From assembly GCA_002898255.1 (NCBI GenBank), contig BEIE01000002.1, positions 310,001 to 374,000 on the forward strand: a stretch of DNA of 64,000 bases. Direction: 5' to 3'. Made by a program: the position numbers and the translations under genes. This DNA comes from a bacterium HR28. GTDB lineage: Bacteria > Chloroflexota > Chloroflexia > Thermomicrobiales > Thermomicrobiaceae. The notes under the pieces were generated by a model. The model searched no databases, was not told the DNA's origin, and saw only the letters and a program-made list of their open reading frames with translations. Of the stretch, positions 6,209 to 27,444 are shown one piece after another (the stretch's first letter is position 1; every line of letters starts with the position of its first letter).

Positions 6209-7174
6209 ACACACTGTTGCGCTGCGTGAACTTGGGGTACCCGCAACAATCTCGATTTCCGAATAGCGGGCGATGGCGGTCAAATGCTTCAGCAGTGTGG
6301 GTTCCATAATGAGTGAAGAAGCGAACTGACCAAGGGTGGTAACGCCGTCATTCAACGTCACCGGACGTTCTTTCTTGCAGGCTCCAACGAGCCAAGGGTC
6401 CTGAATGCGGTCCGCGAACATGGCGACGCTCCCGGCCGGACAGGAGCGCCCCCTGCAGAACTGCGCCCCGCTGCGCATCTTGGTGACCGTGAGGGTGCAT
6501 CGAGCGTGACGGTGGCGTGTAGGAGCCTCAACTACAGCACGCAGCGATTACTGACTGGGTAGGCGACCACACGGCACCGTTCGGCGGTCGAGGAAGCCGA
6601 TCCGGGGATAGAGGCAGAAGGTGAGATGCCTCAAGATCACAACAGATGGGGGTTGGGACCGTACTCCCACGACAGGATGTCCGGTCAAAGGGCTTGAGTA
6701 GGCATCGTGCACAAGGGAAACCCTGCAATCGGCACGAACGGCATCCTGCAAGGCGCTTGACGGCCGGAGACAACCTGCGTACGCTAGTACTGTGGCTTCC
6801 GGGCGGGACCGACGGCACTAGCGAGTAGGTTCGAGCGGGAAGCCGGAGGTCTTTGGAGCAAGCGGATAGCACGCACGCGCAACGTCGAGGAGGGCGTCGC
6901 GCTTGGTTATTTCTTTTTTCGAGCGCCCCTAACAGACGGCGTGAGGCGACCAACCGGCTCTGGCAAGGGACAGCGAGCGCATGTCGCATCGGAGCTAGAG
7001 GGCGAAGCCACCGAAGGGAAGGGAGGTGACGCCGCACGAGAGCGGAAGTGACGAGAGTGGATGCACCAGAGAGCTCGATCGCGTGCGCCACCGAGCGCGA
7101 GAGTTGGCCGATCGAGCGAGGAGTTTGTTTCCGTGCGGACCGGTTTCCGAGGGAGTATTCGAGGAGGAGAGGCA
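6209..7174. other. Long intergenic region, possible gene remnant on the minus strand
   Basis: About 970 bases with no convincing gene. On the minus strand at about 6240-6478 a frame beginning MRSGAQFCRGRSC has protein-like composition (segments such as FADRIQDPWLVGACKKERP and LTAIARYSEIEIVAG), but its frame then runs through the terminator, so it may be a decayed gene. The rest holds only Arg/Ser-rich frames. The importer promoter must lie at the right end; I could not place it with confidence. Confidence 0.4.
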
Positions 7175-8566
7175 ATGACCGAGCAGTCTCGGATGTTGCG
7201 ACAGAAACTTTCGCGGCGCGGGCTCTTGCAGGGTGTTGCGGCCGGACTCGCAGTTCCGGTTGCGAGTGCGCTATTGGCCGCCTGTGCGGGTGGACAAGCA
7301 ACACCGACCACCGCTCCGGCTGGACAGACGCCAGCGGCCCAGCCGACGACGCCTCCAGCGCAGACACCAGCGGCCCAGCCGACGACGGCTCCCGCCCAGA
7401 CTCCCGCCGCCGGAGCGACACCAGCTGCGAAGGAGGTTGTTCTGGCGATCTTGCACTTCAGCGTCATTGAGGGAACGACGTGGTCAGGTGCGCATGACCG
7501 GGCTGGAAAGCGACTGGCAGAGAAGTATCCGAATGTGAAGTACATCTACCGCGAGCAGGTTGGCCCCGACCAGACGGTCCCCTTCGCTGAAGAGATGATC
7601 GCGAAGGAAGGGGCGAACATCATCGTTGGGAATGCCGAGTTCATCGGCATGCCGCTCCTTGACATCGTGGACAAGTATCCGGACAAGATCTTCGTGGCGG
7701 TGACGACGAGCGATCTGACGCATAAGCCGAACTTCATCCGCATCTTCCCGCGGCAGTACCAGTCGCTGTATTTGGAGGGGTTGATTGCCGCGGCGTTGAC
7801 GAAGACTGGCAACGTGGGGATCGTCTCAGCCTACCCGAACCTGCAGGTGTTGCGCCGGCAAGCGGGCTTCGTCCTTGGCGTCCAAGAGGCGGCCAAGAAG
7901 CTCAACAAGGATGTCAAGGTCCACATTAAGTACGTTGGTGACTGGTACCTCCCGGCCGAGGAACGTGCAGTCGCCGAGACACTGGCGACGCAGTACAACT
8001 GTGACGTCTTGACACAGCAAACCGACTCCGGATCGACACTCGACGTCTGCAAGGCACGGGGTCTGTGGTTTGTCGGGAAGGACATGGATACGGTCTGCTT
8101 CTACAAGTGGGCCACGACCGACACAGTGGCAATCTCGTTCGACACGCGCTGGGAGGTGATCTACGACAAGATCATCCAGGCGTACATGAAGGGTGAGAAG
8201 CCGCCGGAGATCATCTTCCCAGGCATGGAATCGAAGATCACTTTGAAGGATGGCACAGAGGTCACGACGACTGACATCATGAACGACTGCAAGGTGGGCG
8301 TTGAGGCAATTAGCCCGAAGGCGAAGGCCGAACTGCCGCAGGAGATCATCGATCTCGTCGCGCAACGACGAGAGGCGATGCGGAAGGGCGAGTGGGATCC
8401 CTTTACTGAGCATGCACTGGTCAGCAATGGGACCGGACTCGAAGTGGAAGGACTACCGATCCCGCCGAAGGGCACGGTGGTTAAGCCGGCCGGCGAGAAG
8501 CCGACCGATGAGTTCCTATTGCAGAAGATCAACTTTGATCTCGATGGCGTGAACATTTTGCCATGA
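7175..8566 (+). CDS. BMP family ABC transporter substrate-binding lipoprotein
   Basis: 463 residues. ATG 7175 follows GAGGAGGAGAGG. A twin-arginine-like SRRGLLQG (Arg14-Arg15) and hydrophobic stretch lead to the lipobox ALLAAC with lipidation Cys37. Residues about 40-85 are a Pro/Thr/Ala/Gln linker built from repeats. The remainder matches the basic membrane protein (PnrA/Med) periplasmic-binding fold, with GNVGIVSAYPNL and the ADVLTQQTDS-like segment CDVLTQQTDSGST. Characterised relatives bind purine nucleosides. It is followed at once by the matching double ATPase and two permeases, so it is the receptor of that importer. The actual ligand is unproven. Confidence 0.93.
   Translation: MTEQSRMLRQKLSRRGLLQGVAAGLAVPVASALLAACAGGQATPTTAPAGQTPAAQPTTPPAQTPAAQPTTAPAQTPAAGATPAAKEVVLAILHFSVIEGTTWSGAHDRAGKRLAEKYPNVKYIYREQVGPDQTVPFAEEMIAKEGANIIVGNAEFIGMPLLDIVDKYPDKIFVAVTTSDLTHKPNFIRIFPRQYQSLYLEGLIAAALTKTGNVGIVSAYPNLQVLRRQAGFVLGVQEAAKKLNKDVKVHIKYVGDWYLPAEERAVAETLATQYNCDVLTQQTDSGSTLDVCKARGLWFVGKDMDTVCFYKWATTDTVAISFDTRWEVIYDKIIQAYMKGEKPPEIIFPGMESKITLKDGTEVTTTDIMNDCKVGVEAISPKAKAELPQEIIDLVAQRREAMRKGEWDPFTEHALVSNGTGLEVEGLPIPPKGTVVKPAGEKPTDEFLLQKINFDLDGVNILP
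7325..7387 (+). repeat. Tandem repeat encoding the lipoprotein linker
   Basis: Two 27-base copies beginning at 7325 and 7361 differ at one base and have a 36-base period, encoding repeated QTPAAQPTT. A degenerate third copy follows. It is an in-frame low-complexity spacer between the lipid anchor and the binding domain. Confidence 0.75.
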
Positions 8567-23317: not shown

Positions 23318-23587
23318 ATGCAGGACGCAAAGCAGTCCAAAAATGTCACGATCCGACCGCTGATACTCCTCATCAGTCTGGCCGGATTTCTGACGGTCTA
23401 TCTCACCGGGCTCGCCCGAAGCCAGTCTTTGACATGGGTTTCGGTAAGTAGCACCGCGGCACTTGTGCTCTTGCTCACTGCGGGGCTGGTGATCGAGCAG
23501 CTGCTTAACCGGCAGGTTCAGGACGATGAGCCAGCAGCGATCTATGAGCCGATGGACGACCGTTCCAGCGAGCAACGCCCGGGCTGA
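23318..23587 (+). CDS. Small unknown membrane protein between flhF and fliA
   Basis: 89 residues with two predicted membrane helices (about 14-33 and 41-63) and an acidic, polar C-terminal tail. ATG 23318 follows GAAGGACTCCTGCG. No family is recognised. Codon use resembles its neighbours, and it lies within the operon, 135 bases after flhF and 30 before fliA, so a flagellar or envelope role is possible. This position normally carries flhG. Confidence 0.75.
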   Translation: MQDAKQSKNVTIRPLILLISLAGFLTVYLTGLARSQSLTWVSVSSTAALVLLLTAGLVIEQLLNRQVQDDEPAAIYEPMDDRSSEQRPG

Positions 23588-23617: not shown

Positions 23618-24391
23618 ATGGCTGTTCCAGCGCACCAGGAAAGGAAACTGCGAGAGCGACTCCGCCGGGTCGATCGGACACCGGACGAGCGGGCACAACT
23701 GGTGGAACGATATGCCCCACTGGTCAAATACGTGGTCGATCGGATGCGGCTCTCGCTACCGCCGAGCATCGAGCGAGACGACTTGATCGGTTACGGCACC
23801 ATCGGCCTGCTGGAGGCACTGGAGCGGTTCGACGATTCCCGTGGGGTGAAGTTCGAGAGCTACGCGGTGATGCGAATCCGAGGCGCGATCTTGGACGCGC
23901 TCCGCACGCTCGACATCGTACCGCGCAGCGCCCGGAGCCGAGCTCGGCAGATCGAGCAAGCGACGCGGGAACTCTTTGCCGAGCACGGGCGGATGCCAAG
24001 TGAGCAAGAACTCGCCGACCATCTAGGGATGACTGTCGGTGAACTCCAGCAGGCGGTGAGCGATGCAGCCTGTATTTTCTTGCCACTGCAGACGACCGAT
24101 GACCCGGACGAGCTCTCGTTAGAAGAACAGTTGGCCGACCCGAGCGCGCCGGAACCGGCGGAGGTCGCGGCGGAAGAGGATATCAAGGGCCGAATCGCGA
24201 CGGCGCTGGCGACACTGAGCCCACGCGACCGGTTGATCGTCTCGCTGTACTACTACGAGGAACTGACAATGCGAGAGATCAGTCAAGTGCTGCGCATTTC
24301 GGAATCACGCGTGAGCCAGATCCTGAACCGTGTGCGGCTCCAGCTGCGAGCGCTGCTGCGCGAGCGTGGCGTTCAGGAGTATGACCTCTGA
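23618..24391 (+). CDS. fliA: Flagellar RNA polymerase sigma factor FliA (sigma-28)
   Basis: 257 residues. Region 2 includes LVKYVVDRMRLSLPPSIERDDLIGYG and RFDDSRGVKFESYAVMRIRGAILD, the clear FliA/WhiG pattern. Region 3 has GRMPSEQELADHLGMT. Region 4 has LSPRDRLIVSLYYYEELTMREIS and the helix-turn-helix ISESRVSQILNRV. It directs late flagellar genes and is held by FlgM, encoded about 2.7 kb downstream. A sigma-28-like -10 is found before flgM. Confidence 0.95.
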   Translation: MAVPAHQERKLRERLRRVDRTPDERAQLVERYAPLVKYVVDRMRLSLPPSIERDDLIGYGTIGLLEALERFDDSRGVKFESYAVMRIRGAILDALRTLDIVPRSARSRARQIEQATRELFAEHGRMPSEQELADHLGMTVGELQQAVSDAACIFLPLQTTDDPDELSLEEQLADPSAPEPAEVAAEEDIKGRIATALATLSPRDRLIVSLYYYEELTMREISQVLRISESRVSQILNRVRLQLRALLRERGVQEYDL

Positions 24392-24406: not shown

Positions 24407-24793
24407 ATGGAGTTTGGGCTGGCCGAGATGCAGATAGTTGCGCTGCTCGGTCTCTTGGCGATCGCCTCGCTTGCAGCCTGGAGTTCCGCCACGCTGTGGC
24501 ATCGCCAGCGCGTGCTGGAACGGGCAGTCGCCGAGCTTGCCACCCGGTTGGAGAGCGGAGACGGCCAGGATCGCGGGGAGGCACGTGACGAGCATTTGCA
24601 GGATGCCAGCACGGCAGTGGCCGAACTGGTGGCGCTCCTTAAAGCGGCCGACCGAACTGCCCTCGAAGAGACGCTCCGGCCGCCGCTCGATCTCCCGCGT
24701 GCTCGCGTCATTGACGCTGATGGAGGAAGTGAGGAGCCACGCCGTCGCTTTGGCCTCACGGGGGATGGGAACTGGAGCGGCTGGGAGGCGTGA
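24407..24793 (+). CDS. Unknown single-helix membrane protein after fliA
   Basis: 128 residues. An N-terminal membrane helix (about 8-28) is followed by a probable coiled-coil or helical segment (RQRVLERAVAELATRLES) and a polar tail ending GDGNWSGWEA. The start follows AGGGGGAGCGGG. No family recognised. It lies 15 bases after fliA and three before the next gene, so it is part of the flagellar operon. Confidence 0.75.
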   Translation: MEFGLAEMQIVALLGLLAIASLAAWSSATLWHRQRVLERAVAELATRLESGDGQDRGEARDEHLQDASTAVAELVALLKAADRTALEETLRPPLDLPRARVIDADGGSEEPRRRFGLTGDGNWSGWEA

Positions 24794-24796
24794 ACC

Positions 24797-25492
24797 GTGC
24801 GCTGGGTAGACGGGGAAAGCATCGCCAGCGAGACGGGCGAGCGCTCCAAAGGTCGAGCAGTACCGGTGATCGAGCCGACCTTTACCGTGTGGCACCTGCT
24901 CGCCATCGGCATTACGTTAGCGACGGTGATCTGGCTTTGGGTAGCGGAGCGAATCCAAGCCGAAGCATTCCCGGTTCGGGTAATTCTCTCGCATGTGCCG
25001 ACGGTGAGTACATGGGGGCCGCCACAGGCAACTGGAGTTGCACTGATCACCTTTAGTGAGGGAGACGTGCGTGCCGACTTCGTCGACCTTCCTATTCTTG
25101 ACGGGAAGGACCGCTACGCTCTGTGGCTGATGCGATCGAAGACCGGAGAGGCATACCTGCTTGGGAAGTTCGACGCAAAGCAACTGCCGGTGACACACGT
25201 GGATCTTCTACTGCCCGAGCCGATCCCAGATTCTGGTTGGGATACGGTACTGGTGACTGTCGAACCAGAACCGGATCCCGATTCGGCTCCAGATGCGCGC
25301 CGTGTCCTCATCGGTGCACTACCAGGGACACCAGTCGAGCTAGACCTCTTGCCGCCGGCACTTCCCCAAACCGGCAAAGGGCGAACGGCGGAGAACCTGT
25401 GGGGGCTCATCCTGGTGAATGCCGGTTGGCTCGCAGCGCTTGGGCTTGGTCGTCCGTGGCGACGCCGACCAGCGGTGGGGAGTGAGACATGA
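24797..25492 (+). CDS. Membrane protein with RskA-like outer domain and LPQTG tail
   Basis: 231 residues from GTG 24797. A membrane helix at about 29-50 is followed by an extracytoplasmic domain with KDRYALWLMRSKTGEAYLLG and DTVLVTVEPEPDPDSAPDA, a pattern resembling the C-terminal domain of anti-sigma-K/RskA proteins. At 189-193 LPQTG is followed by a hydrophobic helix (about 202-218) and an Arg-rich end (RPWRRRP), the layout of a sortase sorting signal. No cytoplasmic sigma-binding domain is evident in the short N-terminus. It overlaps the next gene by four bases. Its role is unknown; location argues for flagellar or envelope work. Confidence 0.75.
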   Translation: MRWVDGESIASETGERSKGRAVPVIEPTFTVWHLLAIGITLATVIWLWVAERIQAEAFPVRVILSHVPTVSTWGPPQATGVALITFSEGDVRADFVDLPILDGKDRYALWLMRSKTGEAYLLGKFDAKQLPVTHVDLLLPEPIPDSGWDTVLVTVEPEPDPDSAPDARRVLIGALPGTPVELDLLPPALPQTGKGRTAENLWGLILVNAGWLAALGLGRPWRRRPAVGSET

Positions 25493-26235
25493 TCCGCACC
25501 ATTTACCAAGCAGCTGCTGGGATGATGGCGCAGTTCGCTCGGCAGCTTACGCTGAGCACGAATCTGGCCAACATCGATACGCCAGGCTACAAGCAGGACG
25601 AGAGCACCATTCGAGACTTCCAGCAGCTCTTCCTTCTCCGACTGGGACACGGGCAGGCAAGCCCGGTCGGGACACTCTCAACGGCGGTTCGCTGGGATCA
25701 GCCGCGGATCGACACTGCGCAAGGCGCACTGGTCGAGACAGGACGGCCGCTGGATTTGGCGATCGCTGGCACTGCTTTCTTCGCGATTCAGACGCCTGAC
25801 GGCGTTGAGTACACGCGGGACGGGCGCTTCCAGCTCGATGCCCAACGGCGTCTGGTCACGGCCGATGGATATCCGGTGCTCGGCGAGCAAGGACCACTGG
25901 TGCTGCCCCCGGGAGACGTCTGGGTAGAACCCGACGGTACGGTCCTGGTGGGGGACCAGGTGATCGGTCGCTTGCTCCTGGTGGAATTTCCACCCGATAC
26001 GCAGTTCGAGCGAAGCCCAGGAAACCGGTTGCGTACCGAGGCCGCTGGAACCCCATCGCAGACCGCAGGTGTGAGCCAAGGGTTTATCGAGGCATCGAAC
26101 GTTGACCTGACGAAGACGCTGACGGACATGCTGGCGGCGACACGGAGCTATCAGCTGGCTGCCCGCACGCTCCAACTCGCTGATGAGACGTTACGGCTGG
26201 CAGTGAACTCGGTTGGCCGAGTGACGCAAGGGTGA
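25489..26235 (+). CDS. Flagellar basal-body rod protein, FlgF/FlgG type
   Basis: 248 residues. The N-terminal LTLSTNLANIDTPGYKQDES is the rod/hook signature (Axx-N-AN-x-T-GYK). The FlgF/FlgG middle has GTAFFAIQTPDGVEYTRDGRF, and the C-terminus ends with the heptad-like SNVDLTKTLTDMLAATRSYQLAARTL. Such proteins build the rod. It is the first of two tandem paralogues; which is FlgF and which FlgG cannot be settled by eye. Confidence 0.9.
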   Translation: MIRTIYQAAAGMMAQFARQLTLSTNLANIDTPGYKQDESTIRDFQQLFLLRLGHGQASPVGTLSTAVRWDQPRIDTAQGALVETGRPLDLAIAGTAFFAIQTPDGVEYTRDGRFQLDAQRRLVTADGYPVLGEQGPLVLPPGDVWVEPDGTVLVGDQVIGRLLLVEFPPDTQFERSPGNRLRTEAAGTPSQTAGVSQGFIEASNVDLTKTLTDMLAATRSYQLAARTLQLADETLRLAVNSVGRVTQG

Positions 26236-26246
26236 GGAAGGAAGCG

Positions 26247-27026
26247 ATGGAAGCGCTCTATTTCCCGGCGGTCAGCGGTGCACGCGCCCAGCAGGTCCGG
26301 CTAGACACCATTGCGCACAATCTGGCCAACTTGGAGACGGACGGCTTCAAGGCTGTGCGAGCCGAATTCGCTGCGATCCCACCGCAAGAATACGTTGTGG
26401 CACGGGCAGGAGCAGCTGTTCTCGGACCGGTCGGCGTGGGGACCGGTGTGGAGCTGGTCGGAACTACTCGTCAGTTCACCCTTGGGCCAATTGAAGTGAC
26501 AGGTGACCCGTACGACCTCGTGCTTGCCAGGCCAGACACGTTTCTCCCGGTGCAGCTGCCTGATGGAACGATTGCCTACCGGCGAAGTGGGCGCTTGGGT
26601 CTGGACGGCGAGGGCCGGTTGGTCTTTGAGGACGGGAGCATGCCACTACCACCGCTCGTTGTTCCAGCCGGGACACAGCTGGATCAGATCGCTCCCGATG
26701 GAACGGTACTCGTGCGGGCACCTGGATCGGGCGACACACAGCCAGTGGGGCGCCTCGAGTTCGTCCGCTTCCCGAACCCACAGGGCTTACTCGCGGCCGG
26801 TCAGGGGCGGTGGCTAGCAACCGATGCGGCTGGGCAACCAGAGCCTGCTGGGGCGGGTGAAGCGAACTCACCACTGGTGATGAACGGTGTGCGCGAGCAC
26901 TCCAACGTTGATCTGGTCGATCAGATGACACAGTTGATCATGGCACAACGCGCGTATACCGCGAACTTGCGTGCGCTCCAAACGCTGGACGAGTTGGTCG
27001 AGATCGCGACGCGGCTCCGGCAGTGA
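26247..27026 (+). CDS. flgG: Flagellar basal-body rod protein, second FlgF/FlgG type
   Basis: 259 residues from the ATG at 26247, which follows GAGGAAGGAAGC; an earlier GTG overlapping the preceding stop is less likely. It has IAHNLANLETDGFKAVR near the N-terminus, AYRRSGRLGLDGEGRLV in the middle, and C-terminal SNVDLVDQMTQLIMAQRAYTANLRAL, the family's closing helix. It probably encodes the distal rod protein, but FlgF is possible. It ends the first plus-strand flagellar segment. Confidence 0.9.
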   Translation: MEALYFPAVSGARAQQVRLDTIAHNLANLETDGFKAVRAEFAAIPPQEYVVARAGAAVLGPVGVGTGVELVGTTRQFTLGPIEVTGDPYDLVLARPDTFLPVQLPDGTIAYRRSGRLGLDGEGRLVFEDGSMPLPPLVVPAGTQLDQIAPDGTVLVRAPGSGDTQPVGRLEFVRFPNPQGLLAAGQGRWLATDAAGQPEPAGAGEANSPLVMNGVREHSNVDLVDQMTQLIMAQRAYTANLRALQTLDELVEIATRLRQ

Positions 27027-27132: not shown

Positions 27133-27444
27133 ATGGTCAACCAGGTCGGGCACGTCTGGCACGATCCCTCGATCCAGCGGGTTGAACCGCCTGAGCAGCA
27201 ACAGGCCCGCCAGCCGGTCACGCCGGTCAGCCGGCCGGATCGGCCATCACAGGCCGCCGAGCTGACACCGGAGCTGCAGGAAGTCCAGCGGGTGATTGAG
27301 ATCGTGCGACAGGCTCCGGATGTGCGGGAAGGGCGGGTGGCAGCGATCCGCAAGCTCCTTGAGACCGGTCGCTACCAGGCGCCGTTGGAGGCGGTTGCAG
27401 ACCGCATCGCTGCCGAACTCCGGCCGACGCTGGAGAGCGAATAG
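27133..27444 (+). CDS. flgM: Anti-sigma-28 factor FlgM
   Basis: 103 residues. A disordered Pro/Gln-rich N-terminus is followed by VREGRVAAIRKLLETGRYQ and a helix EAVADRIAAELR, the FlgM sigma-binding C-terminal half. FlgM holds FliA until it is secreted through the completed hook. It is the first gene after the candidate sigma-28 promoter, so it may be under FliA feedback. Confidence 0.9.
   Translation: MVNQVGHVWHDPSIQRVEPPEQQQARQPVTPVSRPDRPSQAAELTPELQEVQRVIEIVRQAPDVREGRVAAIRKLLETGRYQAPLEAVADRIAAELRPTLESE

Follow-up and report, generated by a model that had tools for sequence, protein, structure and literature searches.

What would a protein apparently built for attachment to the cell wall do in a flagellar operon? 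The window (the whole 64,000-nucleotide stretch of bacterium HR28 that was analysed) contains, between the flagellar sigma factor gene fliA and the rod genes flgF and flgG, an open reading frame whose product ends in a sortase-type LPQTG tail. A first-pass annotation, made without database searches, took it for an RskA-like protein, possibly held to the wall by sortase, that matched no known flagellar component. That observation is correct and larger than first thought: the linkage to flagella and the sorting signal are both well supported by sequence comparison. The role that we favour, with slightly better than even confidence, is that of a structural accessory of the Chloroflexota flagellum, coupled by sortase to the wall and anchoring or bushing the rod.

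The open reading frame and its product

Translation bore out the reading frame, the LPQTG, the hydrophobic helix and the Arg cluster of the first-pass annotation. The frame opens with a GTG at 24797 and closes with a TGA at 25492, encoding 231 aa (Table 1); the start is supported because 'VRWVD' is retained in all Thermomicrobium copies. As had been claimed, it begins three bases after a gene near fliA (end at 24793) and overlaps a rod gene, flgF, whose ATG at 25489 makes the overlap 4 bases. In named collections the genome has its nearest matches in Thermomicrobium, to which it most likely belongs as a species. The same locus occurs on the flagellum-bearing megaplasmid of Thermomicrobium roseum DSM 5159, where TRD_RS09470 is annotated as hypothetical. 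Promoter and terminator scans of the fliA-flgF operon gave no informative result.

Table 1. Features of the fliA-flgM region, in window coordinates
Feature	Coordinates	Strand	Basis or remark
fliA, flagellar sigma factor	23618..24391	+	TIGR02479 E 4e-73
128-aa protein, N-terminal membrane helix, charged remainder; no family match	24407..24793	+	
Predicted sortase-substrate flagellar protein, ORF of 231 aa	24797..25492	+	orthologue of T. roseum TRD_RS09470, WP_012642757.1
Predicted N-terminal signal sequence, residues 1-55, helix 31-53, probable cleavage after A55	24797..24961	+	model, orthologue starts
Extracytoplasmic part: beta-sandwich strands 69-174, distant RskA_C match 72-160, then linker	24962..25357	+	
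LPQTG sortase motif, residues 189-193; LPxTG invariant in family	25361..25375	+	
Hydrophobic membrane helix of sorting signal, model helix 196-217	25382..25447	+	
Arg-rich stop-transfer tail RPWRRR, residues 219-224	25451..25468	+	translation
flgF, rod protein	25489..26235	+	TIGR02490 E 7.7e-53
flgG, rod protein	26232..27026	+	TIGR02488 E 9.6e-55, below equivalog cut-off
flgM, true anti-sigma-28 factor of operon	27133..27444	+	PF04316 E 2.5e-11

The membrane helix noted earlier exists as a hydrophobic helix, although a signal sequence is the best reading of it, as the orthologues begin right there. This first segment ends in a signal-peptidase-like QA|EAFP, and by inspection the orthologues carry a predicted export signal of the same kind, a hydrophobic segment with an AxA-like end. 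At the C-terminus the LPQTG is followed by a hydrophobic helix and then by Arg 219 and 222-224.

Structure prediction, which the first-pass annotation had suggested as a check on the RskA likeness, gave a model of modest confidence (pLDDT 59 on average and 73-82 within the core of the domain) with a beta-sandwich of about 110 residues between the two hydrophobic segments. In fold it is similar to the beta-barrel of Cu,Zn-SOD (Z 10.5, with rmsd 2.6 across 104 residues), a likeness to be read with the modest model confidence and a Foldseek E of just 4e-3; Foldseek returned nothing at E 0.001 or better, and a PDB sequence search with the family profile gave no real match. No solved structure of an RskA outer domain turned up for comparison. 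We reject the protein as a Cu,Zn superoxide dismutase: the metal-binding histidines are not conserved, no histidine stands among the invariant or nearly invariant columns of the 28-sequence family alignment, and a shared fold shows no function.

Two neighbouring proteins may be recorded here. The membrane-helix protein encoded directly after fliA (24407-24793) occupies a slot that in other Chloroflexota holds proteins with a helix-turn-helix-like C-terminus, and that presumably recalls the position of SwrB/YlxL in Bacillus. Between flhF and fliA, window positions 23318-23587 encode a small two-helix membrane protein that is conserved in flagellated Thermomicrobiales and has no family match over cut-off.

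Conservation of the sorting signal

The 28 aligned orthologues are 21-89% identical to the window protein, with a mean column identity of 30%. Just ten columns are invariant, and four of these are L189, P190, T192 and G193, so that the LPxTG is present in 28/28. Four further orthologues also carry the motif (LPDTG in G180, LPRTG in G199, LPNTG in G255 and G311; G numbers denote genomes and L numbers the loci read in them); all four adjoin flgF and three also adjoin fliA, on short contigs. Because the motif is invariant across orthologues down to 21% identity, the alignment indicates that it has been kept by selection while most of the protein changed.

General searches for such signals were less informative. 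Pfam Gram_pos_anchor found nothing above cut-off in the genome and did not list the frame at 24797-25492, and a degenerate DNA pattern for LPxTG genes gave 12 matches against 11 for the reversed control, which is no signal.

Distribution across Chloroflexota

Orthologues lie in the fliA-flgF gap of 32 flagellated Chloroflexota genomes, and this slot (fliA-[x]-flgF) is common to every flagellated genome that has the gene on a contig spanning it. This place beside the rod genes is held across about ten families. The orthologues outside Thermomicrobiales came to light when the stretch between fliA and flgF was read in other classes; when the whole class was searched with just the Thermomicrobiales profile, strong matches were confined to that order and the wider distribution stayed hidden.

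Among 61 Thermomicrobiales genomes FlhA was found in 14, and the gene is present in 13 of those and never without FlhA; the sole exception is G018, whose FlhA is truncated by the end of a contig. Profile search of 400 Chloroflexota genomes separated 28 at E 1e-48 or better from the next match at 5e-12, a clear gap; the weaker matches, from E 5e-12 upwards, were assigned to other RskA-type proteins, only a few having been inspected one by one. An FlhA match occurs in 26 of the 28 strong-match genomes. In G255 there is only part of FlhA, on one contig with the gene, and in G180 fliA and flgF share a short contig with it; with both included, flagellar genes are present in 41 genomes and the gene in 27 of these, against 1 of the 359 without flagellar genes (Fisher p 1.4e-30, which serves as a guide only, the genomes being related and not independent). 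The flagellar association that the first-pass annotation drew from one operon thus holds across the phylum. The one gene-bearing genome without flagellar genes, G220, lacks FlhA; its homologue has no flagellar gene nearby, carries LPSTA in the position of LPxTG, stands beside non-flagellar genes (L235:9986-11104, minus strand) and may be a leftover, or may have been put to a new use once flagella were lost.

The gene is absent from 14 of the 41 genomes with flagellar genes in this sample and is therefore not required for the Chloroflexota flagellum in general. In the gene-less lineages read at L180, L185, L191, L192, L195, L197 and L198 (genomes G240, G165, G273, G301, G369, G453 and G465), the product encoded in the fliA-flgF gap ends in a helix-turn-helix-like region and in some cases also has a membrane helix; none of these gap proteins has a sorting signal.

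Sortases in flagellar operons

The first-pass annotation had raised the possibility of a genome with no sortase. There are in fact three, all over the PF04203 cut-off and two of them inside flagellar operons, and other LPxTG proteins exist as well. The first sortase (C2:660234) ends an operon of the order flaG-fliD-fliS-fliT-sortase. The second (C2:182896) closes an operon with an M23/lytic-transglycosylase gene, a flgB-like gene, fliK, flgD, flgE and a gene for a 906-aa LPNTG beta-helix protein. The third lies in a housekeeping region. T. roseum has both the fliT-linked and the flgE-linked arrangement.

A sortase gene stands directly after fliS/fliT in 21 genomes, 11 of them Thermomicrobiales and 10 outside the order (G162, G188, G192, G199, G216, G276, G277, G304, G342 and G438). 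Such a dedicated enzyme is not universal, there being no sortase after fliS in G227 and G262; the PF04203 search found some sortase in every searched genome that has the RskA-like protein. In a tree of sortases, the fliT-linked and flgE-linked enzymes of Thermomicrobiaceae each form a supported clade of their own, distinct from the other and from the housekeeping sortases, and the distant G025 sortase joins the fliT-linked clade weakly. All 23 fliS/fliT-linked sortases compared keep the catalytic His, Cys and Arg, a set in which those of L049 and L050 were placed by tree position and not by gene order. The fliT-linked sortase matches several classes about equally (F, D), below the NCBI class cut-offs.

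In G162, G188 and G216 the fliS/fliT-linked sortase is the only sortase and the RskA-like protein is present, and G025 likewise has both the protein and a fliT-linked sortase. These four genomes favour the fliS/fliT-linked sortase as the likely partner of the RskA-like protein.

Resemblance to RskA

The anti-sigma-K-like outer domain of the first-pass annotation survives as a distant domain relationship and no further: RskA_C (PF10099) matches the 231-aa protein over about 90 residues at E 1.3e-5 and 25.9 bits, below the Pfam cut-off of 29.4. PF10099 is matched by all 14 Thermomicrobiales orthologues (best E 2.5e-10), and hhalign against the genome's RskA pair gave a probability of 91%; three orthologues from other classes had no Pfam match at E 0.1. 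On these comparisons the resemblance is distant, and it is probably real.

The annotation was right that a sigma-binding part is lacking. No cytoplasmic sigma-binding domain was matched ahead of the membrane helix, and the window protein lacks the zf-HC2 that the two genuine RskA-type proteins of the genome carry, from which it further differs in its wall-sorting signal. With neither zf-HC2 nor another such domain, and with FlgM in the operon, we reject it as an anti-sigma factor.

A proposed wall anchor for the rod

The P-ring gene flgI (PF02119) was absent from 37/37 flagellated genomes tested. Nearly all Dehalococcoidia, the class of Tepidiforma, are likewise reported to lack both flgH and flgI (PMC10284905). 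Peptidoglycan is proven in Tepidiforma, a motile member of the phylum (PMC10284905), and is present in small amount in T. roseum, which is not known to be motile (PMC2615216). The 231-aa protein is not itself FlgI, to which it has no match.

A wall-fixed anchor or bushing of the rod is suggested because the gene lies beside flgF and flgG, is absent without flagella and occurs in a phylum whose flagellated genomes lacked FlgI in all 37 cases. Sec would export the protein through its signal sequence and the C-terminal helix would hold it in the membrane, until a sortase, most likely the fliT/fliS-linked one, cut it at the LPxTG and joined it covalently to peptidoglycan. Sec export, cleavage at LPxTG and linkage to peptidoglycan are established behaviour of such signals. 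The beta-sandwich, made along with FlgF and FlgG, would then serve, at the point of the rod's passage through the wall, as a collar, anchor or bushing fixed to that wall, the motor having no P-ring. In Thermomicrobiaceae a second wall-anchored protein, the beta-helix of about 900 aa encoded after flgE with its own sortase, would probably do a similar job further out.

What can be read directly from the sequences is the sorting signal and its conservation, the order of the genes, their co-occurrence with flagella, sortases inside flagellar operons whose catalytic residues are intact, and the absence of FlgI; the covalent attachment, the pairing of sortase with substrate, rod contact and the bushing role are inferred. 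Gene order is the one line of evidence that places the protein at the rod, and the position between fliA and flgF could reflect expression timing only. More tentatively, and with somewhat less than even confidence, we suggest that in monoderm Chloroflexota a sortase-bonded, wall-anchored collar round the rod stands in for the P-ring, its sortase being encoded by a gene dedicated to the flagellum.

Alternative explanations

The main rival to a rod anchor is a sortase-anchored surface protein that is made together with flagella and forms no part of the motor, such as an adhesin, or a protein of the envelope whose task would be to ready the thick protein layer or S-layer for flagellation. Surface proteins make up most LPxTG proteins, the second substrate of the flagellar operons is an adhesin-like beta-helix, and the wall of T. 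roseum is protein-dominated (PMC2615216); all of this suits such a role, to which we assign a minor, though appreciable, likelihood. A small single domain, kept in one slot beside the rod genes across about ten families and absent without flagella, would be unusual for an adhesin.

It is improbable that the LPxTG tail serves a sortase-made polymer or the joining of the protein to another one, in a pilus- or sheath-like structure for which the flagellar sortase would be the polymerising enzyme. No pilin-like gene cluster stands beside the gene and the protein is small, with one domain, even though two distinct sortases are found in flagellar operons and the fliT-linked one fits classes F and D about equally.

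We are very doubtful of a sensor or regulator whose RskA-like outer domain would signal the assembly of wall or rod and thereby control FliA, either itself or by way of the membrane protein at 24407-24793. The distant RskA_C similarity and the place next to fliA would fit, but there is only a signal sequence and no cytoplasmic sigma-binding domain, unlike in the genome's two zf-HC2 RskA proteins, the operon already has FlgM, and the conserved sortase signal would cut the protein from the membrane. Lastly, an anti-sigma fragment with a fortuitous LPQTG, a chance product or relic to which a Pfam score under the curated cut-off might point, is hardly credible and is refuted by four motif residues invariant in a divergent family, the constant operon slot and the sortases in flagellar operons.

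Relation to known systems

The rod anchor that we favour has known parts: sortase, LPxTG signal and distant RskA_C domain. The literature searched contains no case of a sortase that, together with its substrates, belongs regularly to flagellar operons. With the sortase substrates of Bacillota and Actinomycetota the 231-aa protein shares a signal sequence, LPxTG, helix and Arg tail, and sortases in the genome; it differs in being encoded inside a flagellar operon, often with the sortase in another flagellar operon, whereas the known substrates in the literature searched are adhesins, pilins and morphogenesis proteins. In Actinoplanes, which has swimming zoospores, the reported links of sortases are with sporangia and with the mode of growth, and not with flagella (PMC13251363, PMC13293333). 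The flagellar sortases share with class F and related enzymes (NF033748, PF04203) a domain over the Pfam cut-off and the catalytic His, Cys and Arg; they differ in ending flagellar operons and in scoring below the NCBI class cut-offs.

The proposed place and job, at the peptidoglycan round the rod, are those of FlgI, the wall bushing of Gram-negative flagella, whereas the sequences are unrelated and attachment here would be covalent, via sortase. As an analogy of working, with no claim of homology, ArlF/FlaF may be compared, likewise a small beta-sandwich by which a rotary machine with a filament is secured to the envelope: it ties the archaellum stator to the S-layer, as cited within PMC13319060, and serves an archaellum, not a flagellum, with no sortase.

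A literature search, with subscription journals mostly outside its coverage, found no link between sortase and flagellum and no sortase-anchored flagellar part, and the main texts of the T. roseum (PMC2615216) and Tepidiforma (PMC10284905) papers make no mention of 'sortase'. The distribution of gene and sortase suggests a mechanism, so far undescribed, by which a flagellum is held in the cell wall, and names a specific protein and a candidate enzyme in a phylum with motile isolates (Tepidiforma, PMC10284905). If the proposal is true, sortases have a role in motility that is absent from the literature searched, and the collar is a widespread, previously unrecognised flagellar part.

Other genes of the sortase-bearing operons

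The pair of beta-helix protein and sortase was read in 12 Thermomicrobiaceae. In the window's genome the beta-helix, of the right-handed kind with an LPNTG tail, is encoded between flgE and the sortase of the C2:182896 region (L031:8560-11280, minus strand). In two genomes of another genus (L078:10432-12984 and L081:7252-10623) the beta-helix frame ends in LPNTGG(R/Q) with no membrane helix, possibly through a frameshift or a changed mode of anchoring. The flagellated genome G213, which is without the window protein, has an LPNTG frame on the strand opposite to flgE, together with a sortase beside flgE (L176:5260-6405 and 7153-7974); it may have a hook-side LPNTG/sortase pair without the rod-side protein.

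The flgE-linked operon also encodes an M23 peptidase fused to a lytic transglycosylase (L031:15070-15939, minus strand), likely a wall-opening enzyme; this fusion was noted in the T. roseum genome paper too (PMC2615216). A weak FlgM-like frame follows the fliS-linked sortase in three genomes of one family (L168:6970-7266, L170:5149-5448 and L239:8573-9004). Another LPQTG protein of the window's genome, an open frame of 445 aa, is encoded on contig C1 (L037:286-1623; G000:C1:144535).
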